NCBI RefSeq assembly: GCF_030867145.1
Contig: NC_134418.1
Coordinates: forward strand, 498,501-562,500
Length of the DNA: 64,000 nt
From: Opisthocomus hoazin
Taxonomy: Eukaryota; Chordata; Aves; Opisthocomiformes; Opisthocomidae
Direction: 5' to 3'
Made by a program: the position numbers and the translations under genes
The notes under the pieces: model-generated
Told to the model about the DNA's origin: nothing
What the model saw: the letters and a program-made list of their open reading frames with translations, nothing else
Databases searched by the model: none
Part shown: one piece after another, positions 16,226 to 62,736 of the stretch
Numbering within the stretch: position 1 is the stretch's first letter
Layout of the letters: each line of letters starts with the position of its first letter

Positions 16226-18294
16226 ATGGCGCGTGCCGGCGACGACGGTCCGTGGGATGCCCGCGGGGGGCGGGGGGGGCCGGCGTGACGCGGGGGGGTC
16301 TGGGTCGGTGGGGTCCGAGGGGGGCTGACGGGACCCGGGGGGTTCTGGGTCAGTGGGGTCCCGGGGGGAATGACGTGACCCGGGGGGGTCTGGGTCAGTG
16401 GGGTCCCGGGGGGGGCTGACGGGACCTGGGGGGGTCTGGGTCGGTGAGGTCCGAGGGGGGATGACGGGACCCGGGGGGGTCTGGGTCAGTGGGATCCCGG
16501 GGGGGCTGACATGACCCGGGGGAGTCTGGGTCAGGGAGGTCCCGGGGGGCTGACGTGACCCAGGGGGTCCGGGACAGTGGGGTCCCAGGGGGGTCTGGCA
16601 TGTCCTGGGAGGGGGCTGGGTCTGTGGGGTCACGGGGTCCTGGGTGGGCTGACATGCACATGGGGGGATCTAGGTCAATGGGAGTCCCAGGAGAGCAGAC
16701 ATGTACTGAGAGAGGGGGCAAATCAGTGGGGAGCCCGGGCGGGTGGTCGAGGTGGGCTGATGTGCTGGGGTCCAGGCAGGCTGGCATGCATGGGAGGGGT
16801 GATCCCGTGGGGTCCCAGATGGCTGATGTGCACTGATGGAGGGGGCAGGTCACGGGGGTTGTGGGCTGGCAAGCACCACGGTGGCCAGGGCAGAGGCAGA
16901 TGGGGGTCCCAGGGGAGCGGGGCGCGCCGAGGAGCAGCCCTGGGCAGACGGGTGTGCAGGGTGTCCCGGGCCATAGACACGCTCGCTGCTTCCGCGGTGC
17001 CCGGGCGGTGGTGCAGGGTGTGCCGGGAGGGCCCTTGGCCAGAGTAGGGTGTGCTGGTGGTCCTGGGGCAGCGCGGGGGCCAGGCTGGTGCTGGGCTGAC
17101 GGCCCCCGCAGGCTCCTGGGTGGAGCTGCGGTGTGGCCCAGAGAGCCCCGAGCCCTCGCGGTTCTCCTCCTGCCCTGCTGACGTGGAGCAGATGCTGCTG
17201 GAGGCCCAGCTTGAGACGGAGAGCAGCGACGGGTGAGTCCCGAGCAGGAGCCTGGGCTGGCCTGGCTGGGCTGGCCGTCGGGGTGGTGCAGGCCTGGTGA
17301 CGGGGGGCTTCTGTCCGCAGCGCCCCACTCACGCTGGGCTCCCCAGCCTGCGATGGCGACGGAGCTGGCCCGGCGAGCCAGCAGCAGCCTGGGGAGAGTG
17401 AGCTGCGCCGCCCCCGCAGCCAGCTGCAGTTGGGCTGCCCGCACCCCCAGCAGGTAAGGGAGCTGCCCCCGCCCTGCGCTGCACCCCACGGCCATGCCTC
17501 AGCGCTCACCGCCCCACACCCCCTTCCAGCGGGACGTGCCCGAGGAAGCCGAGCAGAGGGAGCGATGCCTGCCAGCGTCACTCGGCTGGGCCTGTGCCCA
17601 CCGCCCTCAGTGTTTCTCCCGAAAGTAAGGCCCGTGTCCCCCACCAGCGTGTCGCGTCCTGGTGCCCTCTGCCCTTGCTGTCTGCCTTGCAGCCCTGCCC
17701 TGCTGTCCTGCCGTGCTGTCCCTGTGCCCTCCTGTGTGCACTGCCCTCTTCCTTCGTGCCCTGTTTAACCGTGCACTTTTCCCAGGGAGTTTGCCTTTGT
17801 GTGCTCCCCCCAGCCGGTGCTGTGGAGCCTGCAGGGAGGTGCAGTGAGGAGAAAAAAGAGACTTTTCAGTTCCGAGCTGCTGCTGCTCTTCATCCCCTCG
17901 CTGCTGCTCAGCCATGTGCTGACCCTAGGACTGGGGTGAGTTTCTGATGGCCAGACCTGTGCTGTCGGGTGGCCTTGGTCCTGGGTGCAGGCAGGGTGAG
18001 CCCCGCGCTGCTGCGTGTCTGCACAGTCTGGGGCTCTCTGGGGGCCTCCGGCTGGGGCTGGCCCCATGGGAAGCTGCGGGTGGAGGAGCACTCCCGGAGC
18101 TGGACGGCTCATCCATGGGTGCTGTTCTACACTGCTGCTCTCGGCAGCCACAGCCATCTCCCTAGCTGCTGCCCTCTCCCCTCACTACTGAGGCCCAGCA
18201 GGCCGTCCCCGTGTGAGTGCCTTACAGTCGCTCTCTCCAATCCAGGATCTACATTGGGAAGAGGCTGGCAGCCTCCTCGGCAAACCCGCTGTGA
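16226..18294 (+). CDS. BNIP3/NIX-family mitophagy receptor-like gene (complete, 6 exons)
   Basis: Tail-anchored outer-mitochondrial-membrane protein of the BNIP3/BNIP3L family. Exons: 16226-16247, 17112-17232, 17321-17453, 17530-17624, 17786-17935, 18246-18294, giving 189 codons plus stop; human BNIP3 is about 194. The N-terminus has an LC3-interacting-type motif (GSWVEL, W10 to L13). VEQMLLEAQ (about 33-41) matches the family's MEKILLDAQ. A weakly conserved middle ends in KEF at about 124-126. The transmembrane segment is about 155-177 (LLLLFIPSLLLSHVLTLGLG) and the end is IYIGKRL. The membrane Ser-His pair is kept (S166, H167), but the alanine before GxxxG is Thr170. The SSHCDSP stretch typical of BNIP3/NIX is lost. 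Exon 1 has an unusual GTCCGT donor, so the first seven residues are less sure. It is neither BNIP3 nor BNIP3L by location. A fish-type 'BNIP4' identity is possible but unverified. Confidence 0.88.
16284..16860. repeat. G-rich minisatellite, unit about 45 bp (BNIP3-like intron 1)
   Basis: About seven good units of the pattern 'tgacgtgaccc ggggggtctgggtcagtggggtcccgggggg' start near 16,288, 16,326, 16,371, 16,417, 16,462, 16,507 and 16,551. More diverged units run on to about 16,860. Runs of six to eight G on the plus strand suggest G-quadruplex potential. The array starts within 40 bp of exon 1. Confidence 0.9.
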
Positions 18295-18607
18295 AGGGCT
18301 GGGCTGGGTGAGAGACGAGTGGCTCCGCTGCCCCGCTCCTCTGCTAGGTGTGTGCAAGGAGCCCAGGCACCAGTGCAGCCCAGCTGCTCCCAGACCCCGT
18401 GTTTGTGGCACAAGGAGCTGTCTCCCCTTGTCCCTTCTCTAGCCCCAGCCTAGGGAGCGGATCTACCCTCCCACGTAGACGGGAACCCCCTGATGGCAGC
18501 TCCCTGCTGCAGGCAGCCCCTGCCCTCCCCATCCCTCGGTTATGGGTCCAGGTTCCTCTTTAACACAAGACTGTAAATACAGCTCTGAGTCTGCAAGACC
18601 ACATGCG

Positions 18608-18613
18608 AATAAA
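18608..18613 (+). terminator. Polyadenylation signal of the BNIP3-like gene
   Basis: AATAAA lies 314 bp after the stop codon, the first clear signal downstream. Confidence 0.8.
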
Positions 18614-18918
18614 GAGCCGTGTGCCAGTGTGGGAAGGCAGAGCAGCGTGCCAGAGTCATCGCGCCAGACCAGGCACAGCCCAGCCGGGGCAAAGCCAGCG
18701 TGCTCCGCAGCAGCACTGGGGTCCCGTGGGCTCTCTCTGCTGCGGGGCTCCAGGCTGTGGGAGGGTGAGGCCCCACTCTCTGTGGTGCTGGGGCACAGTG
18801 GCCATGGTGGTACCTGGCCCTGGAAGAGGGCCCCTGCTTGGGCCGTGCGTGGGCAGGGGCAAGTGCTGGGGTGCAGACAGGGTTTTCAGCCCCACCGCAA
18901 TGTTCCTGGCTGCTGTTC

Positions 18919-18924
18919 TTTATT
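18919..18924 (-). terminator. Polyadenylation signal of the DOCK gene
   Basis: AATAAA on the minus strand, 820 bp after the DOCK stop codon. It faces the BNIP3-like poly(A) signal about 300 bp away, so the two genes end tail to tail. Confidence 0.7.
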
Positions 18925-19743
18925 AATCGGCTGTGGCCGTGGCCTGCTGCAGCAGGGGGGCAGGGGCTGGAGCCCAGCACAGCTGGCTGGGGCAGCAGCA
19001 CAAGCCTGGCATAGGCAGGGCTGCAAAGCCATATACCGGCAGGAGAGCTGGCGCTGCAAAGCGTGGTGCTGCCCAGGCCGGGCGTGGACCTGGCTGGCTC
19101 CGTGCAGTTGCAGTGCCTGGGCCAGGAGCATTTGTCCTGGTGCTGCAGGATGGGTGGGCGGCCGAGGGACGGGAGCTGCCCTGGGTGGAGAGCAGGAAGG
19201 GGGGAATAGCTTGGCTGTGCCAGCCAGGAGCTTGTTGCCCCGCACGTGGTGTGGTCCGTGGGCAGCGCAGGGTGGAGGGAGGGAAGTCCTTCTCCACGCG
19301 GTGTGGTGGCATCGCTGGTGGGTGGGGGCTCAGCACAGCCCTGCGTGGGAGAGATGTCCCAGCCCAGGCTGGCGTGTAGCTGCGTCGCCTTCGCAGGACG
19401 GCAGGCCTGGCCGAGGGCTGATGCAGAGTGCTGGGGTGGGGAGGCGTCCAGCAGGCAGGTGGGTCCCAGCCCTGGGGGGCACCTGGAGGGTGGCAGCACC
19501 CATTGCTGCAGGACACAGGGCGGCTGTGCCCTCTGTACCGGGACGCAGGGGCAGTCCCGTGGCTGTGCAGGATGCTTCTGGTGTCAATACGGGGAGGTGG
19601 GTGAGGAGGGGTGATCTGGCAGGCGAGGCTCAAGCAGGGACGCTCGTCCAGCAGCCGGCTGGGAGCGGGGGCACTGCCGGCTGGTCGGTCCCGTGGGCAG
19701 GGGTGGCTGCGAGCAGACGGAGCGGCTGCGGGTGGGCACCGGC

Positions 19744-21586
19744 TCAGAGCTGCGACACTCGCTTGGACTTCGGCGGTGGAGGCGGTGGTGACTTCAGCCC
19801 TTTATTTCCATCAGCTGTCGGCGATGTGGATGCCTGCAAGCAGAGAGGGCAGTTACTGGGGCTGGGGGGGGCCGGGGGCCGGGGGCCAGGGCTGGGTGGT
19901 ACCTTCCCTCCGGCTGCGGCATCACTCTGCTCCAGGAAGGTCTCGTACACCGTGGGGCTGATCTTGCGTGGCAGCGGCGGGGCCTTGCTGGCACTCTTCA
20001 CACGGCCGCCGAAGCCGGTGGGAGACGAGGACAGCCCTGTGCAGGTGTGGGAGGTAGGCTGGGCACGTCACCCAGCCTGGGGGGCTGTGGGGCCCCTCGA
20101 GGTGCCCCGGGCTGTTTGTTGCCCTGGACTGCCAGGGCCAGCCTTCCTGCCTGCGGGAGTGTTGGCACTGGGCAGCGGGGCTGGGGGGAGCATGGGGCAG
20201 GAGACCAGCGGGGAGGAGGGGGCTGGCCCGGGGTCAGTGACTGGCAGCTCCGTGGGCAGCGTTCGGTGGGGGACAGGCAAGCGGCGTGGGATCTGCCTGT
20301 GCCCCTGGCACCGAGTGCTCCCTCTCTGCTCCCAGCTGCAGGATGTGCCTGCGCCGTCGTGGGGATGGGGCGAGGGGGTGAGGGTGCCGATGCTGGGGTG
20401 CAGGGATAGGGGTGCTGGTGCCAGCACTGCTGGGGTGGGGGCACAGCCCTGCTCGCAGAGACAAGGGCTGGGGGCTGTAGGGGCTAGAGAGGGTGACCCC
20501 AGGAGGGCACCCCGAGCCAGCAGCCGTGGTGGCGAGTACCTGCAGTGCTGGGCTGAGCACCAGTGGTGACTCGGCTTGGCGGGGGCTGTTTCCCTTCGGA
20601 GCTGCCCAGGCTGCTCTCGCTCATGTTGCGGGAGAGTCTCCGCTTCTCATCCTGGGGCACAGAGGGGAGGCTCAGTGTCTCGGGCACCCGCACCACAGAA
20701 ACGCAGGGGCCTCTGGCAGGGTGCGGTGCTTCCCAGCACCCTGTCCCCAGCCCTGTGTCCCCAGCCTTGTGCCCCACCAGCCTCTGCTCCTGCCCTCCCT
20801 TCCATCAGCTGGCTGTGCCCTGCAGCAGGGGCTGCCACAGCCCCCAAGGGGTCCTGTCCGTGCTGGGGCCTAGTGCTGCCGGCACAAGCAGGGCCCCAGG
20901 GAGGAGGGGAGGCACCAGGGCTGTGCTGAGCATCACCTTGGGCTCTGGCAGCTCCGAGACAGACTGGCGCAGCTCCTGCCGCCGGTACCCGAAGAAGGTG
21001 CTGGAGCGGTTCTCCTTGCGCTCGTTCCTGCGGTCCTCGCTCTCGGAGGTGCGAGGCGCAGGCTTTGGGGTCGGGGGTGCCTCCGTGCTGTGGAGCAGCT
21101 GTGGCTGGTGAGGGGCAGGTGGGTGGCAGGGGGATGGGGAGCAGGGCTATGCCACAGGCCGGCTGGACCACGGCCAGGAGTGGCCGCCCTCAGCCAGCAA
21201 GAAAAGCATGGATGGCGCAGGTGACAGCGGTGTCCAGGTGAGCTGGGAGGCTGCACAGGGGGTGTCTGTGCTCCACGCGCCCCACAGGGACAGGGCCACC
21301 ATGGTGGCAAGGCAGGATGGACCCCTGAGATGTGGCTGGGCATGAAGGGAAGCCGGGAGGGCAGCGGGCTGGGGAGGTGGGAGAGAAGCATCTGGGGCAG
21401 AGGAGAGTGAGGATGGCTCAGCGGTGCAGGACCAGCAGGGAGGGGTGAGGGCAGTGAAAGGGGGTGGCTCGGGGCCAGCACTGCCCACTACAGCACTTGC
21501 CTGTCTCCAGTGTGGCTCAGCCGGTCCCAGTCGGGTCCCCAGGTCACAGACCTGGGTCGTCCACTCCGCCGGTCCTCGAAGCAGAC
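19744..21586 (-). other. C-terminal proline-rich tail of the DOCK gene
   Basis: Five exons encode about 190 residues after the catalytic domain. They begin [12 protein letters not shown], matching the family DDRR-GRPRS stretch. Later come TPKPAPR, an [15 protein letters not shown] basic/serine block resembling DOCK2, KAPPLPRK (fits the Crk SH3 consensus PxLPxK; bases about 19,963-19,980), YETFLEQSD, and a final PPPPPPKSK close to the end. The stop is at 19,744-19,746. Confidence 0.85.
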
Positions 21587-24500
21587 CTAAGAGCACAGGG
21601 AGCCTGAGAGACAGCCAGGAGAAAAATGAGAGCGCGAGCCTCCCTTCTCCTTCCCTTGGCTCAGCCAGGGCTAGCAGTGCCCTCTCTGCCCGGTCCTGGT
21701 TTTGTGCCAGCAGCAGCCACCCCACGGCACTGCAGTCCCCCTACCCAGGGCAGGCAGGGACTCCAAGGTCCCCCATGCACAGGGCCCCTCACCCTGTTGC
21801 TGCTGCAGCTGCAGCCCAGTCAAGCTGTTTGCTGCTGCCCCAGACCTACATTGGCTTGTTCAGTGTCACCTTACGGGTGCCACGCACCACCCGTGCAGCC
21901 CTGGCTGTGCCTGCACCGTGCTCTCCACCCGGGCACTCACCATCTCCCGCACCCCGTACTGGCTCTCCACCTTGGCCCGCAGCTGCATGAAGCACTGCTC
22001 CATGCGCTCGTGGAAGGGCCGCAGGTCCTCTGTCACCTTCCGCCGGTGGATCCGGATCCCCTCTGCCAGCAGCGGGGTCTGCGGGAGAACAGGGACAGAT
22101 CCACCTGCGACTGTAGGACCCCTCCCGGGATGGGGACGCTGGGTGCTGGGCACACCAGGGCAGCCGTCCCCTCCAGCCACCAGAGGGGTGCTGCAGGCTG
22201 TACCTGCCAGGCGATCAGGTCCTTCAGCTTCTCAATGTTTCCCTCGTCCTTGGGGTGCTCCTGCAGGTAGGACTCCTGGAAAAAGGCCTGCAACGACCCC
22301 CTCTCAGTCTCACTGACGGGCTGGCTTGGCCCCACGCAGCAGGGACTGGTGCAAAGTGGTGCTGGTGCCTGTGGTTGCAAGCCTCAAGAGCACCCACACC
22401 AGCCCCAGCACAGCACCTGCGTGTCCTCACCGTCTCGTATTTGGCGAAGCCACCCATGACAGCAGGGTCCACAATGCCATTGAGCAGCATGGAGAGTGGA
22501 TTGACAGGAAGGCTGGGGTCATTCTGGTGTCGGTTGATCTCGCTCATAATTTTCTCATTTGTTTTCATCATGGTCTCGATGGCGTTTTCCAGGGGGGAGA
22601 TGATGGTCTGTGCCCAGGGAGGGAGGGAAGGTCAGCAGCTGGCTGACCCAGAGACCTGCCTGTCCTGGTGTGGGCTGGCAGGGCTGTCCACCTGCCAGCC
22701 CTGCAGGAGAGAGGTCCCAGCGTTGTCCATCTCACCCCATGGAGCCCCTTGGACCCCTGGCACCGACTGCCTGGGGCTGAGCTGAGGGCTCACAGTGGAA
22801 GTGCTGGTCCCCAGCTCTAAACACTGGCTATCAGCAGCGTTCGTCCCGCAGGCGAGAGGCCGGGTGGTGGATGTGGCAGCTCCGTGGTGAGCTTATGGGA
22901 AGCCCGGGTAGATGTCATTGTCACTGGGGGGCAGCTGAGCAACAGCAGCGTGCACAGCCCGAGCGCTGCAGCCAACACGTGTGCATGGCAGCACTCATGC
23001 AGCAGCCCCGCTGGGCATTTCACACATCTTCATTGCTGCAGCACCTGAAACCCCCTGGACTTTGGCCAAACACTGCCCTCTGACAGGCGTAAAACCCACG
23101 CGCGGAGCTGTTGTCAGCAGCCCCAGCAGCAGCAGTGGTCTGCCGAAACTCCCCCAGCACCCCTGTAGCTCCCCACACGCGGCCTCTGCCTCCACACGGA
23201 GGAGATGTGTGTCCCACCGGGCAAGCCACCCAGGCCAGCCCCTGACACCAGGCTGATGCTGCCAGCACTGGCTGACAGCGGCGGTCGATGCCCTGAGTGC
23301 TGGGGGTCTCCATGCCCAGTGTCAGCAGAGAAACCGTTCCCTGTGGCCTGGCAGTGTGGCCCAGGACAGTGCTGCCACGTGGCACAGGCCAAGGCCAGCC
23401 CTGGAGCCGGGGCAGCAGGGCCCAGGCGATGCCAAAGAGGGGTCATCCCTGGCTGCTGGGCTCTGTGCTCGCAGCAGGCAGGGGCCATGCTCGCAGCCCA
23501 CACTGCAGGTGGAGGGGGCATGTGGGAGCAGGGTCCGCTCTGCCGCAGGCGCTGCCCCGGACCATGGGCCCTGGGGAGCACAGGGGCACAGGTCTTGGGT
23601 GCTGGGTGGGCTGGAGTGAGTCTGCACCGAGAGCAGGGACTGGCGGGGACAGGGGACCGGGGCAGGGGCTTGGCCAGGACAGCGGGTGGGACACGGTCCC
23701 CACAGCCCAGCTTCAGCCACTTGAGCTTGGGAAGCCTGGAAGGGGCTGGGGGCAGTGTCCACCTGGACATGGGGTTTGTGATGCTGCCCAGGGAAGGGAT
23801 GCCCTGGGAAAGCCCCAATCCCCCCACAACCCCTCCTCACCGTGGTGGTGGAGGTCACCACAAACCAGCGCAGGATGCCGGGCAGGGGGTAGGCTGTTAC
23901 GAAGGTCGTCCGCTCGATCCACATGGTCTGTGGGGAGGTCAGCAGTCATCCTGCCGCCCCCTCCCCCCATCACCCTGGGACACCCCTGGCGGCCTGTGGG
24001 GCAGGGAGCTCCCACCTGCCCTTCCCATGGGCACGGGGCCACCACCTTCCCCATCGCAGGATGGGCGTCCCCCTGTCTCTCCTGCATCCCCCTTCCTCTG
24101 GAGACCTGGCTCCTCACAGGCCCCACCCCCCACCCCCCAAGCTCTCCACAATCCTCCCCGCCAGGGGTCCCAGCAGCCCCCACCAGCACTCACTGCAAAT
24201 TCATTGTCTGGATCCTTTGGGCCTTTCTTGAAGGGCCGCGAGTAGCTGAACTTCTGGACGTGGTTGGCTTTATAGAAACTGCAGGGGAGGGAAGGGGCAG
24301 AGATGGGAGAGATCCCCGGCTGTGTCCCTCCCGTGGAGCAGAGCGGGGACACCCCCTCCACTCTGGGGCACTCACTTGGTGATCTGCTCCGGGATGCTCC
24401 GGTCATTGAACCGGACCTTGGCTTCCTCCACCGGCTGCACGGTGAAACACTGGATATCTGCGGGAGTGAAGGAGCCACAGGCGCACACCACGGGGTTCGA

Positions 24501-51500: not shown

Positions 51501-54500
51501 CCACAGGACGGACGGGTGTCTGGGATGGATCCGGCCCCCCGCGCACAGCCTCTGGGGGTGAGGGTGGCAGGAGCTGTCTGAAGGCCATGCCAGCAGGCCA
51601 TCCCCTAGCAGGGTGCACGGTGACCCCGGGGAGTCTGCCCACCGCGAAATGCCGGGAGCCCTGGAGAAAGCTGCCAGAGAAACGCTCTGCGCCAGAGGAT
51701 CCCAGCCAGCAGCTGCTCCGGCGTGAGGCCCCTGCTGCTCCCGTGGGTCAGCCGTCCCCGCCAGCCGCAGGACGACAGCCGCTGAGGCCAGGCTGGTCCC
51801 CTGCCACGCACGCCATCCCCGTGCAGCAGCCTCGGGAGCGCGGCAGGGCTGGGGTCCCCGGGATTGGCTCCCTGGGGACGTGCGGGGGCTGAGTTCCCTG
51901 GGGGTCCTGTGGCAGGGCTCAGGGCTGGAGGCGGGCGCGGGGGCATGGATGGGGCGATGCCCTCTGACGCCGTCCCCCTCGCAGCGTGGAGCACGATTTC
52001 CGGCAGCAGGAGGGCCGCTTCCAGCGGGTGCTGAGCCATATCGAGGGCGACGCGACGCCGAGCCCCCCTGCTGCCGCGGCGGGGGCCGTCCTGCCGCCCC
52101 GGCAAGAGCTGTCACCAGTGACGAAGCTGCCTGTGAAGCTGGACACGAAGAAATCCAGGCGCAAATGCTTCTGGTTCCTGTGAGCCAGCAGTGCCTGGCG
52201 GGCCAGGAGCGCGGGGGAACCATCCCAGCACTGACCCCCTGCCCACATCTCCCTCCTCTCCCTCCCTCTGACGGTAGGGTTTGGGTAGCACCAGCTTTTA
52301 TATTTTTAACCGTTCAGTTTAATCTATCAAAGCCCCTGTGTAAATGAGGCGAGGGGAACAATGGCTGTATTTAATGAGAATTCAATAAATTCTACGGAGA
52401 CGCTATTTTTGTTACATCCTCTCCCACCTGTGCACTTCTGTTCTGGATGAGGATGAGGAGGGGGCTGGCGGCCGTTCCCCTGCATGGGCTGCGGTGCTTG
52501 CCCAGCCCCAGGCGCACAGAGCCCCTTGGGAGAGCAGCCTTGGGCCCTCCTCTGCCTCGGGGCTCCCCAAGGGCCACCTGCGTGCCCGGGCTGAAATCGG
52601 TGCCTGTCCTGGCACCCCCCGGCGTGGGCTGCTCACCCAACCCAACCCAACCCAACCCGTGGCTGCTGCCTGAGGGTTAACCAGGAATGCCGAGGATTCC
52701 TCCTGCACTCCTGGTCAGGGATGACGGTAAATGGTCTCTGTGGGACCCTGGCAAGGAGAGGAGACCTGTCCTGAGACCTGCTGGGTGGGAGGGTGGGCTG
52801 TGGGGGGGTCCCAGGGAACATGGCTCTCCTTCCAGCGAGCTCCCCTGTGCGGGGTCAGGGGGCTGGGGGCTGAGCCCCGCACAGCCTGCCTGTAGAGCAG
52901 GGGCTGCCTGGGGCTGCGTGGCTAGAAATTCCCTCTCTCCCTGCGCAGCCCAGCTGGCTGGCAGGGCCTCCCTGGCTGCAGGATGCGCTGGCTAATTACA
53001 GGCAGAAAGGAATTAGCAGCTCAACTATTCCAGCCTCTGCAAGGCTGCCCACCAGAGGAGAAATTCAGCGTCAGTTTAATGAGGGTCCCAGATCAAAGCG
53101 GCCGGCGGCAGCAGTGGGGGGTGACGGGATGCCGAGTGCGGCGCAGCGAGTGCTCCCCCCACTCCGCAGCCCCCCGGGATGTGTCTGCACCCCGGGCCGT
53201 GGCGGGGGCTGCTGCAGCCAGCAGCCTGGGCAGCGCCGAGGGCAGGAGGGTCTGGCCACAGCCGCTCAGCTGGCACCCACACCACGGGGCCCCAAAGCAG
53301 GAGACGCACGTGTGGCAGCTGGCACCGCGTTCAGCCCCATTCCCTGTGCCAGGGACCTGCCCGGCGCTGGCGGGGCTGCAGCCCAGCAGTGCCGAGGGGA
53401 CCCCCTGGTACTGAGGGGTCCCGACTGCTCGACCGTGGGCGATGCTGCAGCCCCCAGCAGCCGCCCCAGCCTCCGCTGCAGCCTCTCCTGCGGCAGCTTG
53501 TCCCTGGCAAGCCCCAGAGGATGGGACCGAGCTGTCCAGGCCGGGACAGGGAGGTCCGAGCCCTCTCAGTGCCCGCTGCCAGGTGGCTCAATGTCCAACT
53601 GGAGACCAGTGAGGAGTGGCGTTCCTCAGGGGTCGGTGTTGGGACCGGCACTGTTTAACGGCTTTGCTGGTGACATGGACAGTGGGACCGAGTGCACCCT
53701 CAGCAAGTTTGCCGATGACACCAAGCTGAGTGGTGGGGTTGACATGCCTGAGGGATGGGATGGCATCCAGAGGGACCTGGACAGGCTTGAGAAGTGGGCC
53801 TGTGTGAACCTCATGAGGTTCAACAAGGCCAAGGGCAGGGTCCTGCACCCGGGGCGGGGCAACCCCCGGTATCAATACAGGCTGGGGGATGCAGGGATGG
53901 AGAGCAGCCCTGTCAAGATGGACTTGGGGGATGAGAAGCTGGCCATGACCTGGCAGTGTGCACTGCCAGCCCAGAAGGCCAAGCATGCCCTGGGCTGCAT
54001 CCCCAGCATTGTGGGCAGCAGGGCGAGGGAGGGGATTCTGCCCCTCTGCCCTGCTCTGCTGAGACCCCCCCGGGAGCCCTGCACCCAGCTCTGGAGCCCT
54101 CAGCACAGGACAGAGCTGGAGCTGTGGGAGTGGGGCCAGAGGAGGCCCCAGCAATGACCCGGGGGCTGGAACCCCTCTGCTGGGAGGAAAGGCTGGGAGA
54201 GCTGGGGCTGCTCAGCCTGGGGAGGAGAAGGCTGCGGGGAGACCTGAGAGCAGCTGCCAGGGCCTGGAGGGGCTTCGAGAGAGCTGGAGAGGGGCTGGGA
54301 CAAGGGCATGGGGTGAGGGGACAATGGGGGATGGCTTTGAACTGCAAGAGAGGTGATTTAGATTAGATCTAAGGGAGAAATTCTTCCCCTTGAGGGTGGT
54401 GAGGCCCTGGCCCAGGCTGCCCAGAGAAGCTGTGGCTGCCCCCTCCCTGGCAGGGCTCAAGGCCAGGTTGGACGGGGCTGGGAGCACCCTGGGCTGGGGG

Positions 54501-57500
54501 AAGGGGTCCCTGCCCGTGGCAGCGGAGGTGGAACTGGATGGCTTTTAAAGGTCCCTTCCGACCCAAGCCATTCCGTGATTCTATGATTTCTGGAGCCTGG
54601 CAGGGCCAGCGTGTGGGAGGGGGACAAGTGGTGGGAGTGAGGCGCAGCCAAAGGGTCGCTCCCCTCCTCCCACACCATGTACGGGGCCACGCTTCAGCAC
54701 GCTGCGTCCCTCCTCACCTCTGTCACTGCCTGGCAGAGCGTGCCCAACAGCTCTTTTTGCTCTTGCTTTCTCTGGCACTGAATCACACAGCCTGGGAACA
54801 AAGGCTAAAAGCAAGATGATACCGAACACAACCCTGTCCACATCTCCTGCCTGAGTCACATCTCCTGCCTGAATCATGCTCTGGCGCTGAGAGCCCGCTG
54901 TGCCCGCCCGGCACAGCCCCAGCGGCACAGCTTTCGGCAGCAGAGCCGATAATGCGTCCGGCAAAGCGGCACTGCCCAGCCACGAGGCCATGGGGACTGC
55001 ACCGGCCGTTGGCTCGGCCAGTAAAGCCACCCAGGACAGCAGAGCCGCTGTCAGGACACATCACCATGGGGCTGAACCAGCAGGGCTGTGCCCGCCGCGC
55101 GGGCAGGGGAGGACGGGCTGAGCCAGGAGCTGGAGGGAGACCTCGTACCTCCCCTGCCCTCGGCGCTAAGAGAAGGGGTCACCAGGCAGGGAGCGGCAAC
55201 GCTGGTGCCTCAGCACATCAGCGGGAGCAATCCCAGCACCCGAGACACTCGCAGACCAGGGCAGGCTCATCCGCTGGAGAGCAGGGGCAGGGCCAGTGAG
55301 GATGAAGCTGCTGTCCGGCCTGCTGGCTTATTGCCTCGGTTTAGGTCTTTATTAATGAGAACAAAGAACAGGATGGCACATCTGCAGGCTTATGCCAAGA
55401 AGGTTCAAGCAAAGGGCCAAGCTGCCACTCTGGATGCCCACACCTCCCCGGGCATAGCACACAGCATGGCACGGCACGGCACAGCGCTTCACCACAGCAC
55501 CGCACTTTGCTGCTCCATTGCTCACTCCAGGATGCTGGAGCATGGTCAGACCCAGCTCCTCGCCCACCCTCGCGAGCCAGAGCACCCTGTCAGGCCACGC
55601 TGCCTGGCTGAGCATGCAGGGTCTGCTGCTATGTCCACGTCAGACTGCCCACGAACCCACGCCAGGTCTGCTGCCGTGTCCACGTCAGAGTGCCCACAAA
55701 CCCACGCCGGGTCTGCTGCCATGTCCACGTCAGAGTGCCCACAAACCCACGCCAGGTCTGCTGCCATGTCCATGTCAGAGTGCCCACAAACCCACCCTGG
55801 CCACAGCTCTGTTTCCCCCTCCTTCATGACGAGGTCATGGCACCCAGCGCAGCCGCTCTGCGTGAAGCTCAGCTGAGCAGCGCTCCGACCTGCCTCCCCT
55901 CCCACCAGAGGTGGGTGTCCCAGCACATTCCTCCCGCGGATTCTTGGCATGTAAAATTCGGACGGGTCACTGGGTCCAGTTGCTGCTTTTCTGAAGAATA
56001 CAGCCCAAACCCCTCATCTGCTTCCAAAATAGTCTTTGTGCATCACAAACACCCTGCCTGCTCCTCCCAACGCATTCTCTGCTCCAGACCCCTCCTGGCA
56101 CGGCTCCCCCTCGCTTTTGGGCTTTCTCGGACATCCTGCTGTGTTTAACACCTGCACACCCAGTCCCTGCCAGCTCACTCGGTCCCAGACCCCTAAATCA
56201 GCAACGCCTTTTGCATCTCCCGTGTCGCCCAAAGGCAGCTGTGGGAAGAGGCGCAGCCCCGAAGTCCGGCGCAGCGCGAGGTGGCGGCGATGGTACTCAC
56301 CCGCAGGGTGTTCTCCCGGTCCAGGATGATCACCCTCCGGTTGACGGTGTGCAGCAGCTGCTCCAGGATCAGCTGGATGTGCTTCTTCACATTCACCTGC
56401 AAGGCGAGAGGTGTCACAGCCGTGCCTGAGCGCCTGGCGCTGCCGGCAGTGGTGCCGGCAGGGGTGGCACAGCCGGCAGCACCATCACTGCAGCCGACGG
56501 GCGTCGCTGAGCAGGCACACGGCCCCCAGCCCTCACAGGCGCCTGGTGCTGGCAGGCTGGGCTGGGGGACGCCACCTCCCAGGCCACATGCCATCGGCCC
56601 CGTGGCACCACCACAATTACTGCAGCTTGCCGAAGAAAGCGGACAGGAAAGTTGCGAAGTGTTTGCAATTATTCTTGGCAGAAGGTGCAGGAACCGCGGC
56701 TGAGGGCACAAGTTTCCTCAGCACCCCGAAGTGCCCCGTGGAGTGGGGAGGAAGCAGCTTTGCTCCAGCTGTGGGAGAAAGTGGCTGTTGGATGAGCCCC
56801 AACACCTCTACAGCTCCAGCTGCAGGGGACCGCAGCCACCGGATGAGCCGTGTGCCCGGGGTGCTCAGCCATGAGACCAGACAGCTCCGGTCCTCAGCGG
56901 TGGCCAGGCAGGAGCACGCTGCAGGAGGGACAGGCTTGTGGCACCTCGGGAGACGGGAAAGCACGAGCTGACTCTAAAGACTTGTGATTTATATGAAATA
57001 CTGAAATAAAAGTCTTGTCCACTCCAGCACAGCAAGTACGGCTCGTTTAATCTCTGCGCGGGGGGCTGGCAGCACTGGGGCACCGGTCGGAGCTGGAGCT
57101 GGACAAGGCGATGCAGTCTGGTATAAACATGGGGCTCAAGGTCTCCACACAGCTCGGCTTCATACGGCTTCCGTGCAAAGCCAGCCACCCAGTCGGGGAC
57201 AGCTGGGGACAGCTGGGGACGGCTGCGTCTGCGCTAGCCAGAGCTGTCCCAAGGCAGTCAGCACCACAGCCAAAGGTGGGTTTCAGCTCACACAGGGTTG
57301 AAACAAGAGAAGTGTCATTGCCCATGAGCATCCTGATTATCCTCTCCTTAAAGGCTATTTTAGCTTCAAAAGGTAAAGGCCAAAACAAGACATTTCAATT
57401 ATTTCAAGCCTGGGCTTCCCAGTGCCAGGGGAGTTAAAAAGCCACGCTCATGCAGCCACCTCGCCCACCCAACACAGGGTGGCACAAGTCTAATCCAGGT

Positions 57501-60500
57501 TCCGCAGCGCCGGTTGCTGTGCTGTGGGTGCGACGTCTGGACTTCCCCGGGGTGCCAGAAAGGGACTCCAAAGCACAGACCAGCCCGGAAAGGACAGAAA
57601 CGGAGGAGGCATCCTGCAGACCCCTGCACGTTCCCGAAATGCTGCCGGAACGGCCACCGCCGGCAGCTGCCACACAGCTTGCAGCCACGTGGCCCTGCTG
57701 CGGGTGGACTGGGGCTTGCGGGGAGAGATGGCGATGGCTCACTGGTGGCCCAGGGACACAGCCCAGTGCTAGCTGCAGAAAGGCAGGGGACAGAGGGCAG
57801 CACCCAGACAACATGGGGAAAGGGGTACAGCTGCGGGGCTGTGGGCACACCTAGCCCCCAGGTACATCAGCCCAGCACCACAGCGACGTGCCCCAGCGTC
57901 CCACACCGCGCAGGGTGCCGTGTTTCCGTGCCGTGGGAAAGGGAGGAGGAGGTGACCCAGCAAGGGAGCTGCCAGCGCAGTCACATGAGGACTGGGCTCC
58001 TGCCTGTGACTTCCACGTGCTCAGCCCGAACACCACGATGCCAGGGCAGGAGCCTACAAAGAGAGACACGCTGCAAGTCACGCTGCCGGGGCCATCAGCA
58101 GCCACCCTCTGCCCCGCTCTGCTGAGACCCCCCGGGGGTCCTGCGCCCAGCTCTGGAGCCCTCAGACAGAGCTGGAGCTGTGGGAGCGGGGCCAGAGGAG
58201 GCCCCAGCAACGATGCAAGGGCTGGAACCCCTCTGCTGGGAGGAAAGGCTGGGAGAGCTGGGGCTGCTCAGCCTGGGGAGCAGAAGGCTGCGGGGAGACC
58301 TGAGAGCAGCTTCCAGTACTTAAAGGGGGCTTGTAAGACAGATGGGGAAAGTCTTTTCAGCAGGGCCTGAAGTGACAGGACAAGGAGTAATGGTTTTAAA
58401 CTAAAAGAGGAGATTTAGGCTGGATATAAGAAAGAAATCTTTTGCAATGAGGGTGATGAGGCACTGGCCCAGGTTGCCCAAAGAGGTGGTCGATGCCCCA
58501 CCCCTGGCAATGTTCAAGTCCAGGTTGGACGGGGCTCTGAGCAACATGATCCAGTTGAAGAGGTCCCTGCTCATGGCAGGGGCTTGGACTAGATGACCTT
58601 TAAAAGGTCCCTTCCAACCCAAACCAGTCTGTGATTCTATGATTCGCCGGTTGTACTCTCTTTTGCACGCTGCTTCCAGTGCTCCAAGCCTACACTTATC
58701 CATCCAGCACTCGGGGAGCAGCAAGTCCAGTGGGGCCACCGGCACGCTGGCAGAGCTGTGACCCAGCGTGAGCCGGCTCTGCAGTGCCGGCATGCCTCTC
58801 ACAGCCCTACCTGCTGCACCGGGAACACTGCCGGGCTGCCCCACAGCCCTGCTTTACCCCCAAAAGCCACGAGACCTCACTTTCTCCTCGCCCAAGCAAG
58901 GAGCTGGAATGGCCCGAGCCCACCCGCCAGTGCACAGCGAAGCACCGAGGCCAGAGGAGGCCAGGGCAAAGGTCTGGGCACAGACACCCACCCCCCAGGG
59001 CAGGACACGGGGCACCGAGGGCTCGCTACAAGCCTAGAACCATGCAGACGCCAGCCTCCCAGCCCTGCAGGGCAGCTCCCAGGCCTGATCCCACCACTGC
59101 AGCATCCCTGCCAGCAGCCCAGCTCCGTGCATTGGCTCCAGGCAACTGCACAGGGTTTGCCGCCGTAAAGAGATGCAGATGAGCCCTTCCCGAATGCACA
59201 GGGGCACCTCGCTCCTCCCTGCCAGCTGCCCAGTGCCGAAGCCCATCGGAGAGGCACTCACCAGCTCCACATCACCACGGTCCTTGTGCCGTCCCTGTCC
59301 TGCGCCGTGCTGAGCTCGTAGCTTCTCCGCTCTCTGCAACAAACCGCATGCCGTGAAGTTGGGCTGATGCCCAGCAAGGACAGCCCCATCCCACCGGCAG
59401 CCATACTGGGACAAGTCATGTTTGGGCGGTCAGGCTCCCGCACCAGGACCCAAGGGCAGCTGGACTGGTGAATCGCTGTGGTTTCTCACTTCGGCAGCCC
59501 ACGTCAGCGGGCAGACTCCTGTGGGCAGCTCAGGGGAAGAGGGACATGGGGACCCCCGCTGTCTGGGCATGGTCGGGTCCCTGCTGAGGGGTGCTAGGAT
59601 GGACCCCCAGGCCACAGGGCTCTGGCTCGTGTTTAGGGCCATCACTGATGATTTTGGAGCGCCAGGCTGCCTTCTGCCTCACCCTTCTGCTCCTGCAGAG
59701 CAGGGACAGCAAGATGCATGGCCAGCGATGCAGCCCCTTGCCCTCAGGTTGGTGCTGCCCCTGAGCTTGGAGACCTCTTCCCCACTTCTGGTGACTGATG
59801 GGAACTCACCAGAGACCAGCTGAGGTGGAAATCAACAGGTCTTTACCCCCAGCTTGGGCAGGCTCCCACTGGGGTGGTGGGCACCAACAGCCCCTTTGAC
59901 TTCGGATGGACCACGATCAGTCCCGACCATATCATGGCCAGTAATTTGTGCTCAGCCCTACTCAGACGGGTTTAGTCAGGTCACTTCCGAGGCAATTACT
60001 GAAGTGGGAAAAGGAGCCAGCAGAGAAGACGGGATTTACCTTCTGGGCCTTGTACAGCACCTCCAGGATGTTGCTGAGTAGCTCAAGGCAGGCCTCCTCC
60101 TCCTCCCCCTTCTCGATGAGCTCCCGCAGGATGGGCACCGTGGTCTGCAGCAGCAGCTCCCGGCACTCTGCGGCGTGGACAAGGAGATACAGGGCTGGTG
60201 GGCACAGGCACCACCCCAGAGACAGAGGGGAGACCAACAGGACAGACGGACAGACAGCACGGTGCCCGGGCTGGGCTGCGACCCGCACACAGAGCTGTCG
60301 ACCTCGTGTGGGGCTAGGGTTTTTGGAAAAGCATTAAATCCTGGTGGGAAGGCTCCAACACAGAGAGGCCATTGCACCCTGTTACACAGCTACTTATCCT
60401 CTCTGCTAAAATAAACTACACTAAAATAGAAAAGCCTCATCTGAGCCTCTCTTGCTTCAGCTTCCACCAACGGACTTTGTTCTGCTTCTCTGCTCTGATA

Positions 60501-62736
60501 AAGGTGCTTATGATTTAACTGAATAGACGGAGACTTCTTAAACTGGACACCACCTAGATAAACTCGAGTCTCTAGTGCTGAATATATGAAAAAGCTGTGC
60601 TCTGCCTATCACGTACTACTCTGTTCCTCTGCCCGGGGCTGGTACTTGTGACACCACGCTGTGCTGATGGCTCCACACTGCAGCTTATCCCTGTGGTGGC
60701 ACCTCTAGAGTGGGGGCAGCGGGAAGGAAAGCGAGCGACAACGTTTCTCTGTTGTCTTGCTGGCATGACCACCTGCGATGGTGGGGTGTGGAGGAGCAGC
60801 ATCACACCAGGGAGGGATGCAAGGCAGGACGCGGGGTGGGATGCGGGCAGCGACGCGGGGACCGCTCGCGGGGCCGTGGTGGCTCAGAGCGGAGCTGGTG
60901 CGGGTGGCAGCAGGTGACCTGCCGGCCATGCAGGAGACGATCACGTTGCCATCTCCCAAAGTCTCCACGGACAGAGACACAAAGCAGCTCCTGCTGCCCG
61001 TGGCTGAGCAGCTCCCCGGCTCCCCGGAGCCTCCCTGCTGCAGCTGAAGCCCAGGGTCCCTGGCCCAGCTCCCCAAGGCCGCCCACGCCCCTTCTCCTTG
61101 AAGATGCCATGGGGATATCTGAACGCTCATCGCGTCTCCCTGTGCGCTTTCCTGCCCCAAGCCCCTCAGTAGTTCTTCCTTCGCCCTGCCCTCTGAGCTA
61201 TGCTTCTCTCACTGCTTTCTTCTGGACTTTCTCCAGTTCAGCCACAAGCTTCTTGTGCCACCCAAAACCACATGCGGAAGCGAGCCCAGCCGAGGCCTCG
61301 CCAACGCCGAGCGGGGTGCAGGGTGCAGGGCACTCGCGTGTCCCGGGGACGCTCCCCTGCGAGGGCTGCGTCGCCCAGCCCCGCCGCTCCCCCCCGCAGC
61401 ACTGCCGCCACCCCGGCCTCCATCCTCAGCTTGCTCAGCGATTGCTTTCACACGATTGCTTTTAACTTACACATGGTCTGCATCTTTCAAAACCTTTTCT
61501 CCAACTTCTTGAGACTCTTTTAAATCCCAAGCCTGTCCTCCAGCATGCTTCCAGTCACTTCTGCCTTGCCGGGCAAAACTCACCAGGTCTACCCTTTTCT
61601 CCATCACACAGATTACCCCAAGGAACACCAAACAGCGTCAGAGTCAGGGCAGACCTGGGGAGTCCCATTCCGTACGTCCCTCCAGTCTGACAGGAAGCCC
61701 CCTCCCCGAACACCACCGCTAAACCGTCGGCACACCGACGGCGTATTGCGTCAGCTAAACCCCATTTCCCTCTGCAGCCCGGCAGCGCTGCAGGCAGCAG
61801 GTGAGGTTCACGCCAGCCAGGGCTGGGCCACACACGGCTCCAGGAATCGCCTCCCTCCGCAGAGCCACCCCTCGGGGCAGGGCAGGGGTCCCTGCGGCAG
61901 GGACTCATCCCCCGCCTACGCCATGGCCCTCCCAGGGGAGCTCAGCACGGGCAGTGCTGCCAGGACCCCCGTGCCCTGCTCACCGTAGGACTGGAAGATC
62001 TTGGTGTTGACGATGTCGGTCAGGGACTGCAGCTTCTGCTTCAGCAGGCGCTGGGGCGGCAGGTTCCCGATGAAGTCCCGCAGCAAGGCCCTGCCGTCCA
62101 GGCGAGAGGATTTCACGAGTGTTAAACACGGGGTTTGCAAGAGCCCCGCTTGTTGTGCAGTCCCGAGCCCCTGCAGCCCCTCCTGCAGCAGTGGGGAGCC
62201 GGGTACCCCCTGCCCCTGGGTTTCAGTCAGGATGGGGCAGAGCTGTGCAGGGGGGTGCAGGCACGACGGTCCCACTGCACAGAGCCGCAAGGCAGCCCGT
62301 GCCCCCCGCAGACACCGCACGGAGACACCCGAACAAAAACCCTGCCTGAATTCCCAAAACAGACCCGGCCGGGCTGAGGGTTTCCAGGCTCAGCCCCTGC
62401 CTGAAGCAGAGGCTACTGAGAAAATTGAGCAAAACCCTCCCCTGGTTTCTCACTAGGAAAGAGATAAGGAGGCATTTCCCAGGCGTCAGGAAACTCCGAT
62501 CCCTCTGTACACCCTCGCCCTCGGTTCGACGGCGTCAGCCTGCACCCCTGCCAGGATGAGGGGTCGCTGCGGGACGGCAGCGGGGGCAGAGGCGGCTGCG
62601 GCAGACAGCGAGCACGCTGCAGAGCAGGGCTGGGGCTGGGGGGGACAGGGCGACAGGGACCCTACCCCAGCGCAGAGGAGTCGAAGATCCCAAAGACGTC
62701 CTCCAGGATGGAAGGCAGGTACTTCAGGGCCGCTCC
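19744..62736 (-). CDS. DOCK-A subfamily Rac GEF, DOCK2-like (3' half, 29-30 exons)
   Basis: Dedicator-of-cytokinesis protein, a guanine-nucleotide exchange factor for Rac acting with ELMO at the plasma membrane. Exons 5' to 3': 62736-62666, 62090-61984, 60167-60040, (59333-59262 optional), 56396-56301, 33313-33215, 32924-32830, 32202-32124, 32046-31946, 31745-31687, 30791-30643, 29260-29175, 28764-28608, 28307-28267, 28097-28007, 27910-27791, 27219-27130, 27012-26908, 24807-24666, 24457-24376, 24278-24194, 23927-23841, 22607-22431, 22287-22204, 22078-21941, 21586-21501, 21087-20937, 20651-20540, 20036-19903, 19833-19744. All phases join without a stop: 1,013 codons (1,037 with the optional exon). 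Human DOCK2 is about 1,830, so the SH3, C2-like DHR1 and early helical exons lie beyond 64,000. Wording such as [22 protein letters not shown] and YGVREM is closest to DOCK2. Location beside HTRA2/AUP1 argues against DOCK2 itself. Confidence 0.93.
21087..21501 (-). other. GC-AG intron boundary in the DOCK tail
   Basis: The exon ending at 21,501 is followed by GCAAGT rather than GTAAGT, and its last bases are GACAG. Joining it to the exon starting at 21,087 preserves the frame (AG + C). This is the minor but functional GC-AG donor class. Confidence 0.75.
21941..28764 (-). other. DHR2 catalytic domain-coding exons of the DOCK gene
   Basis: These 13 exons encode the DHR2 GEF domain. Landmarks in order are [129 protein letters not shown] and DLIAWQ. 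The VDPAVMGG loop contains the valine that serves as nucleotide sensor in DOCK2 (Val1538, from memory) and it is kept, so the protein looks catalytically competent. Confidence 0.92.
24458..24665 (-). other. Probable U12-type (minor spliceosome) intron in the DOCK gene
   Basis: The 208-bp intron starts GTATCCTC, matching seven of eight positions of the U12 donor GTATCCTT. It has TCCTTCAC, close to the branch-site TCCTTAAC, ending about 10 nt before the acceptor AG. It interrupts a tyrosine codon within SPGQYIQCFTV. Confidence 0.7.
28867..29090. repeat. Minisatellite in DOCK intron (about 20-40 bp units)
   Basis: Alternating copies of ggcaggggtaattcctgggg and gggcaggggcattgctgggg are repeated seven to eight times between two DOCK exons. 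Confidence 0.9.
33347..33558. repeat. Minisatellite, five units of about 42 bp
   Basis: Units begin near 33,347, 33,388, 33,430, 33,473 and 33,515, each containing ggtgcgctggggctgaggg or a close variant. The array starts 34 bp upstream of a DOCK exon acceptor on the minus strand. Confidence 0.9.
35750..36800 (+). promoter_or_regulatory. Strong CpG island inside the DOCK intron, likely INSYN2-like promoter
   Basis: About 1 kb of extreme G+C with very dense CpG and many GGGCGG boxes. A GAGCAGCAG-GTACCG at about 36,162 could be the donor of a non-coding first exon. It lies about 10 kb upstream of the INSYN2-like ATG on the same strand. Assignment to that gene is inference; an internal DOCK promoter is the alternative. 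Confidence 0.55.
40050..40250 (+). mobile_element. Old CR1 LINE 3' fragment
   Basis: Contains TTGGCACAAACACAG, GGATATAAACTGGCTGTG, AGGAAATTAGAAGG and GAAGAGCCTCCAAGAG in the order found near the 3' end of old sauropsid CR1 elements. Diverged and truncated at both ends. Confidence 0.7.
41930..42260 (-). mobile_element. Old CR1 LINE fragment, reverse orientation
   Basis: Read on the plus strand it has GGTATAATCCGCACATTTTG, then GTTAGCCAGTTTTTAATCCA, then GTCAAATGCCTCACAGAAAT, then CGACCAAACTCGGAACCTCA. This is the spacing of the reverse complement of old CR1 ORF2. A middle piece is deleted. Confidence 0.75.
45305..45580. repeat. Minisatellite, about 40-bp units
   Basis: Six to seven units of the pattern 'ccatgcccca...cgggtcccctctgcccagtc' are repeated head to tail, about 0.5 kb upstream of a candidate 5'-UTR exon of the INSYN2-like gene. 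Confidence 0.88.
45950..47300 (+). other. CpG-rich segment over the INSYN2-like coding exon
   Basis: High CpG density across the first coding exon. It could reflect a second promoter or simply the local base composition. Codon third positions here are nearly all G or C. Confidence 0.5.
46037..46414 (+). other. Candidate 5'-UTR part of the INSYN2-like coding exon
   Basis: A good acceptor (TCTCTCTGTCCCTGCAG, ending at 46,036) precedes this GC-rich segment, which runs without a break into the coding exon. It would let a non-coding first exon from the 36-kb CpG island splice in. No transcript evidence is available. Confidence 0.4.
46415..52183 (+). CDS. INSYN2 (FAM196)-family inhibitory-synapse factor-like gene, nested antisense in DOCK intron
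   Basis: INSYN2 proteins are components of the inhibitory (gephyrin) postsynapse. Exons: 46415-47883, 49448-49522, 51985-52183, with phases joining to 580 codons plus stop; INSYN2A and INSYN2B are about 480-530. Residues 22-59 hold the family block [19 protein letters not shown] followed by [19 protein letters not shown] long Pro/Arg/Ala-rich low-complexity middle follows. The coiled coil is at about 408-488 ([35 protein letters not shown]). Next come [10 protein letters not shown] and a cysteine cluster, [10 protein letters not shown] (502-511), then [16 protein letters not shown]. The end is [11 protein letters not shown]. Translation could also start at Met22 (46,478), which fits the family better. 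The middle is unusually GC-rich and probably fast evolving. INSYN2A and INSYN2B are nested antisense in DOCK1 and DOCK2 in mammals, which supports the identity of both genes here. Confidence 0.92.
47884..49447 (+). other. INSYN2-like intron 1
   Basis: No exon was recognised in this 1.56-kb stretch. An AT-rich segment at about 48,590-49,080 contrasts with the GC-rich flanks and may be an old repeat I cannot identify. Confidence 0.5.
49523..51984 (+). other. INSYN2-like intron 2
   Basis: A 2.46-kb intron without recognisable coding content. It holds a short repeat of four 10-bp units (ggtgacagga and variants) at about 50,376-50,420. Confidence 0.55.
52384..52389 (+). terminator. Polyadenylation signal of the INSYN2-like gene
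   Basis: AATAAA lies 201 bp after the stop codon, in an AT-rich 3' UTR that contrasts with the GC-rich coding exons. Confidence 0.85.
52390..53579. other. Unassigned part of the DOCK intron
   Basis: No gene or transposon was recognised. It includes a short (aaccc)-type run at about 52,636-52,658. Confidence 0.5.
53580..54592 (+). mobile_element. CR1 LINE, 3' truncated-5' copy with degenerate RT and full tail
   Basis: Translation of the plus strand gives CR1 reverse-transcriptase pieces: [45 protein letters not shown] and CRVLHPG-like text. The CR1 3' UTR follows (GGGAGAAATTCTTCCCCTTG) and the terminal ATTCTATGATT. It contains internal deletions and is 5' truncated. It is among the younger-looking copies here and is antisense to DOCK. 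Confidence 0.93.
54593..56300. other. Unassigned DOCK intron end with minisatellite
   Basis: No exon was recognised apart from the minisatellite listed at 55,621-55,800. Open frames here arise from the repeat. Confidence 0.5.
55621..55800. repeat. Four near-identical 45-bp tandem units
   Basis: Units are 55,621-55,665, 55,666-55,710, 55,711-55,755 and 55,756-55,800. Each begins gtctgctgc and contains gtccacgtcagagtgcccac or a close variant, with only a few substitutions between them. The unit length is a multiple of three, which creates open frames by chance. Confidence 0.95.
56397..59261. other. DOCK intron containing a young CR1 tail
   Basis: No DOCK exon is expected or seen here. The only identified content is the CR1 copy at about 58,085-58,650. 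Confidence 0.55.
58085..58650 (+). mobile_element. CR1 LINE 3'-end copy
   Basis: Parallel to the copy at 53.6-54.6 kb, sharing GGAACCCCTCTGCTGGGAGG, CTGGGAGAGCTGGGGCTGCT, the 3' UTR block and the TTCTATGATT tail. Shorter, with only the 3' part retained. Confidence 0.92.
59262..59333 (-). other. Candidate cassette exon of the DOCK gene (72 nt)
   Basis: An open stretch of 24 codons lies between a TTGCAG acceptor and a strong CTG-GTGAGT donor. It is in phase 0 at both ends. The flanking exons already join into the family pattern ([10 protein letters not shown] then VNVKKHIQ) without it, so it is either optional or not an exon. Confidence 0.35.
61185..61560 (-). mobile_element. Old CR1 LINE fragment, reverse orientation
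   Basis: Plus-strand reading gives TTCTGGACTTTCTCCAGTTC, then CGAGCCCAGCCGAGGCCTCG, CCAACGCCGAG, and further on TTTAAATCCCAAGCCTGTCC. This corresponds to the reverse of the CR1 segment that reads toward the 'LDRLEKV' region. Confidence 0.7.

Follow-up and report, generated by a model that had tools for sequence, protein, structure and literature searches.

A DOCK-A gene with a nested INSYN2-family gene and an adjoining BNIP3-family gene beside HTRA2 in Opisthocomus hoazin: a probable fourth ohnolog of the DOCK-A unit

The stretch of Opisthocomus hoazin DNA analysed here (hereafter the window: 64,000 nucleotides of RefSeq assembly GCF_030867145.1, contig NC_134418.1, C5:498501-562500) carries, in order, HTRA2 on the minus strand, AUP1 on the plus strand, a BNIP3-family gene (plus), and a DOCK-A gene (minus) with an antisense INSYN2-family gene (plus) in one of its introns. 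The contig, which we call C5, is 88.6 Mb long in a genome of 1.48 Gb and 415 contigs; the contigs C6, C23 and C28 belong to the same genome. A stretch of 254 kb around the window, free of N, was put under study, and coordinates given without a contig are window coordinates, negative when they lie to its left.

The DOCK-A gene is the largest of these and extends well beyond the window. Its ATG is at window coordinate 93934 (C5:592434), 30 kb past the right edge, and its provisional stop codon is at 19744-19746. The model comprises 47 exons and 1618 codons without a stop, and 24 of the 47 exons lie inside the window, with position 62736 as the first base of exon 24, the highest in the window. 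Read on the minus strand, the modelled exons begin there with four at 62666-62736, 61984-62090, 60040-60167 and 56301-56396 (together 56301..62736, with 23 more exons right of the window). The intron that houses the INSYN2-family gene (33314..56300) lies between this last exon and the exon at 33215-33313, and is followed by four exons of the middle region (31946..33313) and by 16 exons (21941..31745) for the distal helical region and the DHR-2 catalytic domain, including the segment with the sensor valine, which are co-linear with human DOCK2 and DOCK5. A proline-rich C-terminal tail is proposed at 19744..21104; it reads in frame at 19744, its exons are not firmly chained, and its alignment to the DOCK5 tail scores -9.7 bits, which is not significant. 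The N-terminal half, with the ATG, SH3 and DHR-1, is an open reading frame in the right flank.

The DOCK-A domains are present in their expected order. In searches of PDB chains, query residues 1-161 aligned to DOCK2 chain 3a98 (expectation value, E, of 1e-59) and residues 2-57 to DOCK1 chain 2m0y (E 6e-16), both of which we take to contain the SH3 domain. Residues 404-605 aligned to DOCK1 chain 3l4c (E 2e-83), presumably the DHR-1 domain. DHR-2 was co-linear with DOCK2 chain 2yin (E 4e-203), and the segment holding the sensor valine is unchanged; this valine, residue 1539 in DOCK2, is described as universally conserved and as serving GDP release (PMC8063744).

Overall, the new protein follows human DOCK5 co-linearly from SH3 through DHR-2, and human DOCK2 in every part of that chain that is resolved and aligned. 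Splice sites were regular, with 46 GT donors, one GC donor and AG at 46 of 46 acceptors, and the guanine-plus-cytosine (GC) content at codon positions 1, 2 and 3 was 0.57, 0.35 and 0.89, respectively, against 0.652 in the introns. With stop triplets at the local rate of 0.0177, a run of 1618 open codons would arise by chance with a probability of about 3e-13, which we treat as a guide only because the choice of exons already favours open frames. The co-linear alignments with human DOCK5 and DOCK2 are stronger coding evidence than this figure. Together with the identity to human DOCK proteins and the chained 1618-codon model, they rule out chance open frames as an explanation. From 48.0 to 63.0 kb, PDB searches of the minus strand returned nothing in two of the three frames, and one weak DOCK5 match plus one unrelated weak match in the third; this is an exon-sparse part of the DOCK gene. 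Between 31 and 46 kb, these searches covered two of the three minus-strand frames. The sole GC-AG intron among the 47 modelled donors lies right of the window, between exons 86595-86720 and 86349-86473. Inside the large intron, a reverse-transcriptase-like open frame at 52874-54157 (plus strand; PF00078, 29.2 bits against a cut-off of 29.6) is probably a retroelement relic.

The nested INSYN2-family gene (46415-52183, plus strand) has three coding exons and an open frame of 580 codons that ends in CFWFL followed by the stop. Its first coding exon (46415..47883) matched the FAM196 profile PF15265 with an E of 3e-18, and exon 2 (49448..49522) and exon 3 with the stop (51985..52183) were placed by profile matches in the genome search and by exon models. 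All three exons matched PF15265 above the cut-off, at profile positions 361-411, 406-431 and 429-489. When the genome was searched with the INSYN2 profile, all nine matches fell on C6, C23 and C5, three on each.

At all three of these loci, the INSYN2 gene lies antisense to its host DOCK gene and between a homologous pair of DOCK exons. On C23, INSYN2B (7311307-7320341, plus strand) is flanked by minus-strand DOCK2 exons at 7329698-7329811 (E 2e-9) and 7279113-7279214 (E 2e-10). On C6, INSYN2A (77663697-77697449, minus strand) is flanked by plus-strand DOCK1 matches at 77654718-77654864 (E 2e-4) and 77742583-77742672 (E 0.02), the latter in the correct order among other DOCK1 exons. The new gene lies between the corresponding minus-strand exons, 56301-56396 and 33215-33313. 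Occupation of the same intron at three loci is hard to explain other than by a single DOCK-INSYN2 unit that is older than the duplications. The DOCK5 contig, C28, held none of the nine INSYN2 matches; there the later flanking exon was matched, and the stretch before it was matched weakly (E 0.05), 1.7 kb away. Across a coil of 41 residues, the new INSYN2 protein equals INSYN2A at 23 positions and INSYN2B at 21, and the latter two equal each other at 21.

The BNIP3-family gene occupies 16226-18294 (plus strand). The exon with the LC3-binding motif GSWVEL and the short linear motif VEQMLLEAQLE (17112..17232), the transmembrane exon (FIPSLLLSHVLTLGLG; 17786..17935, found by the genome's own PF06553 match at C5:516281-516436) and the last coding exon (IYIGKRLAASSANPL and stop; 18246..18294) are clear. 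The first coding exon (16226..16247), which has the ATG at 16226 and a weak donor, is provisional, as are two middle exons with phase-consistent splice sites at 17421-17453 and 17530-17624 (17421..17624). The model from GSWVEL onward, including the two provisional exons, matched PF06553 with 81.2 bits against a cut-off of 26 (E 1e-22). The tryptophan-rich BH3-like segment is degraded, reading WIWDWSSRPENIPPK in the C6 copy versus SLGWACAHRPQCFSRK in the provisional exon at 17530-17624. All seven matches of a BNIP3 search of the genome fell on C28 (three, with a BNIP3L-type locus at 4.91 Mb), C6 (three) and C5 (one). Across 50 residues of the C-terminal exon segment, the new copy matches the C6 copy at 22 positions and the C28 copy at 23, compared with 36 between C6 and C28.

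The degraded BH3-like segment and weak first donor could suggest that the block is a decaying relic whose genes are still present but no longer make working proteins, as could the first coding exon of INSYN2, whose match to the FAM196 profile in the genome search is confined to the part near its end (positions 361-411). However, we regard decay as very unlikely, given 1618 stop-free DOCK codons with a third-position GC content of 0.89 and a single non-GT donor, an INSYN2 splice model that, as chosen, is open for 580 codons and conserved at its ends, and a BNIP3 copy that retains both the LC3-binding motif and the membrane anchor.

An earlier note on this DNA had described an intact DOCK-A gene, an intact antisense INSYN2-family gene in one of its introns and a BNIP3-family gene adjoining it, all beside HTRA2 and AUP1. 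The limits given in the note coincide exactly with features of the models, 16226 with the proposed BNIP3-family ATG and 62736 with the first base of DOCK exon 24. The INSYN2 and BNIP3 genes hold up on their profile matches and retained motifs, and the location holds on a PF13365 match in HTRA2 and a CUE domain in the adjacent AUP1. The DOCK gene is likewise real and open, but the window contains only its C-terminal half.

We next consider which DOCK-A genes this genome has. The whole genome was searched with the assembled DOCK protein. Of 159 first-look candidates, 29 were scored, and the 33 matches listed comprised 20 on C5 (the new gene), six on C23, four on C6 and three on C28. The C23 copy is DOCK2, being 93.5% identical to human DOCK2 (199 columns), and the C28 copy (5.28 Mb) is DOCK5, with 89.7% identity to human DOCK5 (224 columns). 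By exclusion, by the INSYN2 gene inside it and by general knowledge of the family, the C6 copy is DOCK1; DOCK1 and FAM196A are published neighbours (PMC6135963). Since DOCK1, DOCK2 and DOCK5 were all found elsewhere in the genome, the gene beside AUP1 is a fourth DOCK-A gene. The possibility that it is simply this genome's DOCK2 is ruled out by the C23 copy.

A maximum-likelihood tree (unrooted; six sequences, 252 columns, 200 bootstrap replicates) paired human DOCK2 with the C23 copy and human DOCK5 with the C28 copy, and separated the new gene and DOCK2 from DOCK1 and DOCK5, each with a bootstrap of 100. The new gene falls outside both the DOCK2 and the DOCK5 pairs. Because the C23 copy and human DOCK2 form a pair that leaves out the new gene, the split between the new gene and DOCK2 predates the divergence of birds and mammals. 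In the C-terminal half (657 columns), the new protein shares 68.3% identity with human DOCK2 and 66.2% with human DOCK5; between the two human proteins the figure is 65.1%. Its identity to human DOCK5 is 69.4% over 252 columns, and to the C28 copy 68.8% over 224.

The chromosomes that carry the DOCK copies also share other duplicated families. TLX copies were found on C5 (47-49 kb beyond the right edge), on C6 at 65.19 Mb and on C23 at 6.36 Mb, and all five O-GlcNAcase matches were on C5 and at C6:64.74 Mb, 0.45 Mb from TLX1. The new DOCK gene thus sits among paralogon members, with TLX, O-GlcNAcase, INSYN2, BNIP3 and DOCK copies on shared chromosomes. Wotton et al. 2008 described four Lbx/Tlx paralogons, with DOCK2 beside TLX3, and, on the basis of other gene families, inferred that the Lbx2 locus is sister to the Tlx3 locus (PMC2446394). 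The grouping of the new gene with DOCK2 agrees with that sister relationship. The human order given in the same work is TLX2, DQX1, AUP1, an HTRA gene, LOXL3 and DOK1, and it includes no DOCK gene, and likewise no INSYN2 or BNIP3 gene (PMC2446394).

In our interpretation, the block belongs to the Lbx2/Tlx2 paralogon and is the fourth ohnolog of the DOCK-A unit, with a probability of about 0.93. The direct basis is that one genome has four separate DOCK-A loci along with three for INSYN2 and three for the BNIP3 family, to which the shared intron, the synteny and the unrooted tree are added. The earlier note had called the block a whole-genome-duplication copy, which is supported by the shared nested-gene intron and by synteny with TLX2, PCGF1, LOXL3 and DOK1. 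It had also called it the fourth copy of the whole set, and this applies to DOCK-A only; the INSYN2 and BNIP3-family genes are the third of their kind in this genome. The refuting case named in the note, with all three genes inside known orthologue clades and no second copy in the genome, did not arise: separate DOCK2, INSYN2B, BNIP3 and BNIP3L loci are present, and the DOCK tree excludes the new gene from the DOCK2 clade. Before the two early vertebrate genome duplications (2R), an ancestral chromosome would have carried a DOCK-A gene with an antisense intronic INSYN2 gene and a BNIP3 gene close by. Its four copies would correspond to human 10q (DOCK1, INSYN2A, BNIP3 and TLX1), 5q (DOCK2, INSYN2B and TLX3), 8p (DOCK5 and BNIP3L) and the 2p13/HTRA2-type region, which would have kept the new DOCK, INSYN2 and BNIP3 genes with TLX2. 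In the mammalian line, the block would have been removed from between AUP1 and DQX1. Judging from published descriptions of the human locus and of the gene families, it has apparently been lost in mammals.

Several points weigh against this interpretation. The tree is unrooted, without a DOCK3/4 outgroup, and rests on six sequences and 252 columns, with missing blocks in three of the six rows. The lean towards DOCK2 in plain identity is small, at 75.9% to the C23 copy (199 columns) versus 73.5% to C6 DOCK1 (200 columns). PDB scores were higher for human DOCK5 than for DOCK2 in both halves of the protein (1006.6 versus 545.6 and 1095.2 versus 1059.9 bits), in part because stretches of the DOCK2 chain are unresolved (X). 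Similarity to DOCK was the criterion by which most of the DOCK exons were taken from 129 chained candidates, and the tail exons are provisional. Both matches flanking the DOCK1 intron are weak. The relationships of the INSYN2 and BNIP3 genes were drawn from locus and pairwise identity, and the BNIP3 copy has the degraded segment and weak donor noted above.

In the unrooted tree the new gene shares a side with DOCK2, which would also fit a later segmental duplication of the DOCK2-INSYN2B block into the HTRA2 region, in which the nested INSYN2 gene would have travelled with the copied DOCK. We consider this very unlikely. The C23 copy joins human DOCK2 without the new gene (bootstrap 100), so the split is older than birds and mammals; none of the seven BNIP3-family matches is on C23, so there is no such gene now beside DOCK2 to have been copied along with it; and TLX and O-GlcNAcase copies accompany the DOCK copies on their chromosomes. 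In human, SLC4A5 and MTHFD2 are 2p13 genes. Although both are published at the chicken GnRH1-DOCK5 locus (PMC6135963), relocation of the bird DOCK5 and BNIP3L genes to a site beside HTRA2 is refuted by the separate DOCK5 (C28:5.28 Mb) and BNIP3L-type (C28:4.91 Mb) loci in the same genome and by the 69.4% identity of the new gene to human DOCK5, compared with 89.7% for the C28 copy.

Among the closest known relatives of the new DOCK gene is DOCK2, which has INSYN2B in its intron and belongs to the TLX3 paralogon. The two genes share their domain order, the antisense INSYN2 gene between the same two exons and their side of the unrooted tree. They differ in that the new gene is in the TLX2 paralogon and has only 68.3% identity to human DOCK2 (657 columns), compared with 93.5% for the C23 copy (199 columns). 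DOCK1 and DOCK5 have the DOCK-A domain order in common with it, and DOCK1 also the antisense INSYN2A between the same two exons, but they lie on the opposite side of the split and have their own loci on C6 and C28. A family review gives DOCK1, DOCK2 and DOCK5 as the DOCK-A members (PMC8063744), and no fourth DOCK-A and no third INSYN2 gene is named among the top-listed titles and abstract openings of the open-licence papers searched. For BNIP3, a published phylogeny recognises three vertebrate lineages, the third of which, BNIP3L2, is reported only in ray-finned fishes and coelacanth (PMC5526904). Like the new gene, BNIP3L2 represents a third BNIP3-type lineage with an LC3-binding motif, and the short linear motif is reported in its teleost branch (PMC5526904). 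The new gene may be the land-vertebrate counterpart of BNIP3L2, or of zebrafish bnip4.

We note that the functions of the three proteins are putative, as they are predicted from their sequences. With its SH3, DHR-1, DHR-2 and sensor valine kept, the new DOCK protein is predicted to be an ELMO-dependent Rac exchange factor. The new INSYN2 protein would be an inhibitory-synapse scaffold, to judge by family membership only. The BNIP3 copy, with its LC3-binding motif and anchor kept and its BH3-like part degraded, is a candidate tail-anchored mitophagy receptor of the outer mitochondrial membrane.

We think it likely that a complete and previously undescribed fourth DOCK-A, a third INSYN2 and a third BNIP3-type gene survive in a land vertebrate as a linked 2R block between AUP1 and DQX1 that was lost as a whole in mammals, and that the TLX2 paralogon of this lineage may hold a cluster of mammal-lost regulators left uncounted by ohnolog surveys based on human genes. 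An intact fourth DOCK-A gene with its INSYN2 and BNIP3 neighbours would fill the last place in the set of four that 2R predicts for the Lbx/Tlx paralogon, and would mean that INSYN2 was already nested in DOCK when the duplications took place. Three signalling genes retained by one amniote lineage and apparently missing from another would, moreover, make a clean natural case, with the caution that in these animals a paralogue absent from mammals may share the roles of DOCK2 or BNIP3. A survey of ohnologs was limited to those with human orthologues and would therefore be blind to mammal-lost genes of this kind (PMC12954441).

The remaining genes of the window and its flanks were named from domains and from the order of their neighbours. 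The HTRA2 protease exons (1273..2632, minus strand) were placed by an exon scan and matched the trypsin-like profile PF13365 with an E of 2.6e-20, and further exons lie left of the window, where we take part of the sequence to be PDZ-like. Assignment to HTRA2 rather than another HTRA gene rests on the neighbouring genes. AUP1 (5680..13108, plus strand), which directly adjoins it, was found by exon scan and a CUE domain (E 5e-7); we assume the name from this domain and the known HTRA2-AUP1 neighbourhood. The extended order is DOK1 (-59 to -52 kb), an O-GlcNAcase copy (-40 to -30 kb), LOXL3 (-20 to -8 kb), HTRA2, AUP1, the BNIP3 copy, DOCK with INSYN2, DQX1 (96-102 kb), an immunoglobulin-type gene (105-107.5 kb), TLX2 (111-113 kb), PCGF1 (126-129 kb) and a homeobox gene at C5:644695 that fits, and is probably, LBX2. 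The names DOK1, DQX1, PCGF1, AUP1, TLX2 and LBX2 combine domains or similarity with background knowledge and the published order, and the Pfam matches for DQX1 and PCGF1 fall below the curated cut-offs. A search of the window for RNA families gave no matches.

In chicken, the Lbx2/Tlx2-type region is described on chromosome 4, linked to Dctn1 across sequence gaps; like the new locus it has Aup1, Htra2, Loxl3 and a second Mgea gene together, but unlike it, the region as described names no DOCK, INSYN2 or BNIP3 gene (PMC2446394). In the right flank (95-149 kb), GC content was 0.74-0.78 per 10-kb bin from 95.5 kb on, around TLX2 and PCGF1, which would be hard for short-read assemblies.

Other genes in the stretch are also absent from the published human locus, namely the second O-GlcNAcase and perhaps an IL12B-like cytokine gene. 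The former, beside LOXL3 at about -39.6 to -30 kb (C5:458871-468186; NAGidase, PF07555), has a paralogue on C6 and agrees with the additional Mgea gene that Wotton et al. 2008 describe in chicken; it is a further candidate for a gene missing from the human locus. From its position it had been guessed to be M1AP, which the Pfam match to O-GlcNAcase (NAGidase) rules out. The immunoglobulin-type gene between DQX1 and TLX2 (C5:603456-606006; 105.0-107.5 kb) has a sub-threshold Pfam immunoglobulin match. We take its exons to resemble IL-12 p40, and it is a possible IL12B ohnolog.

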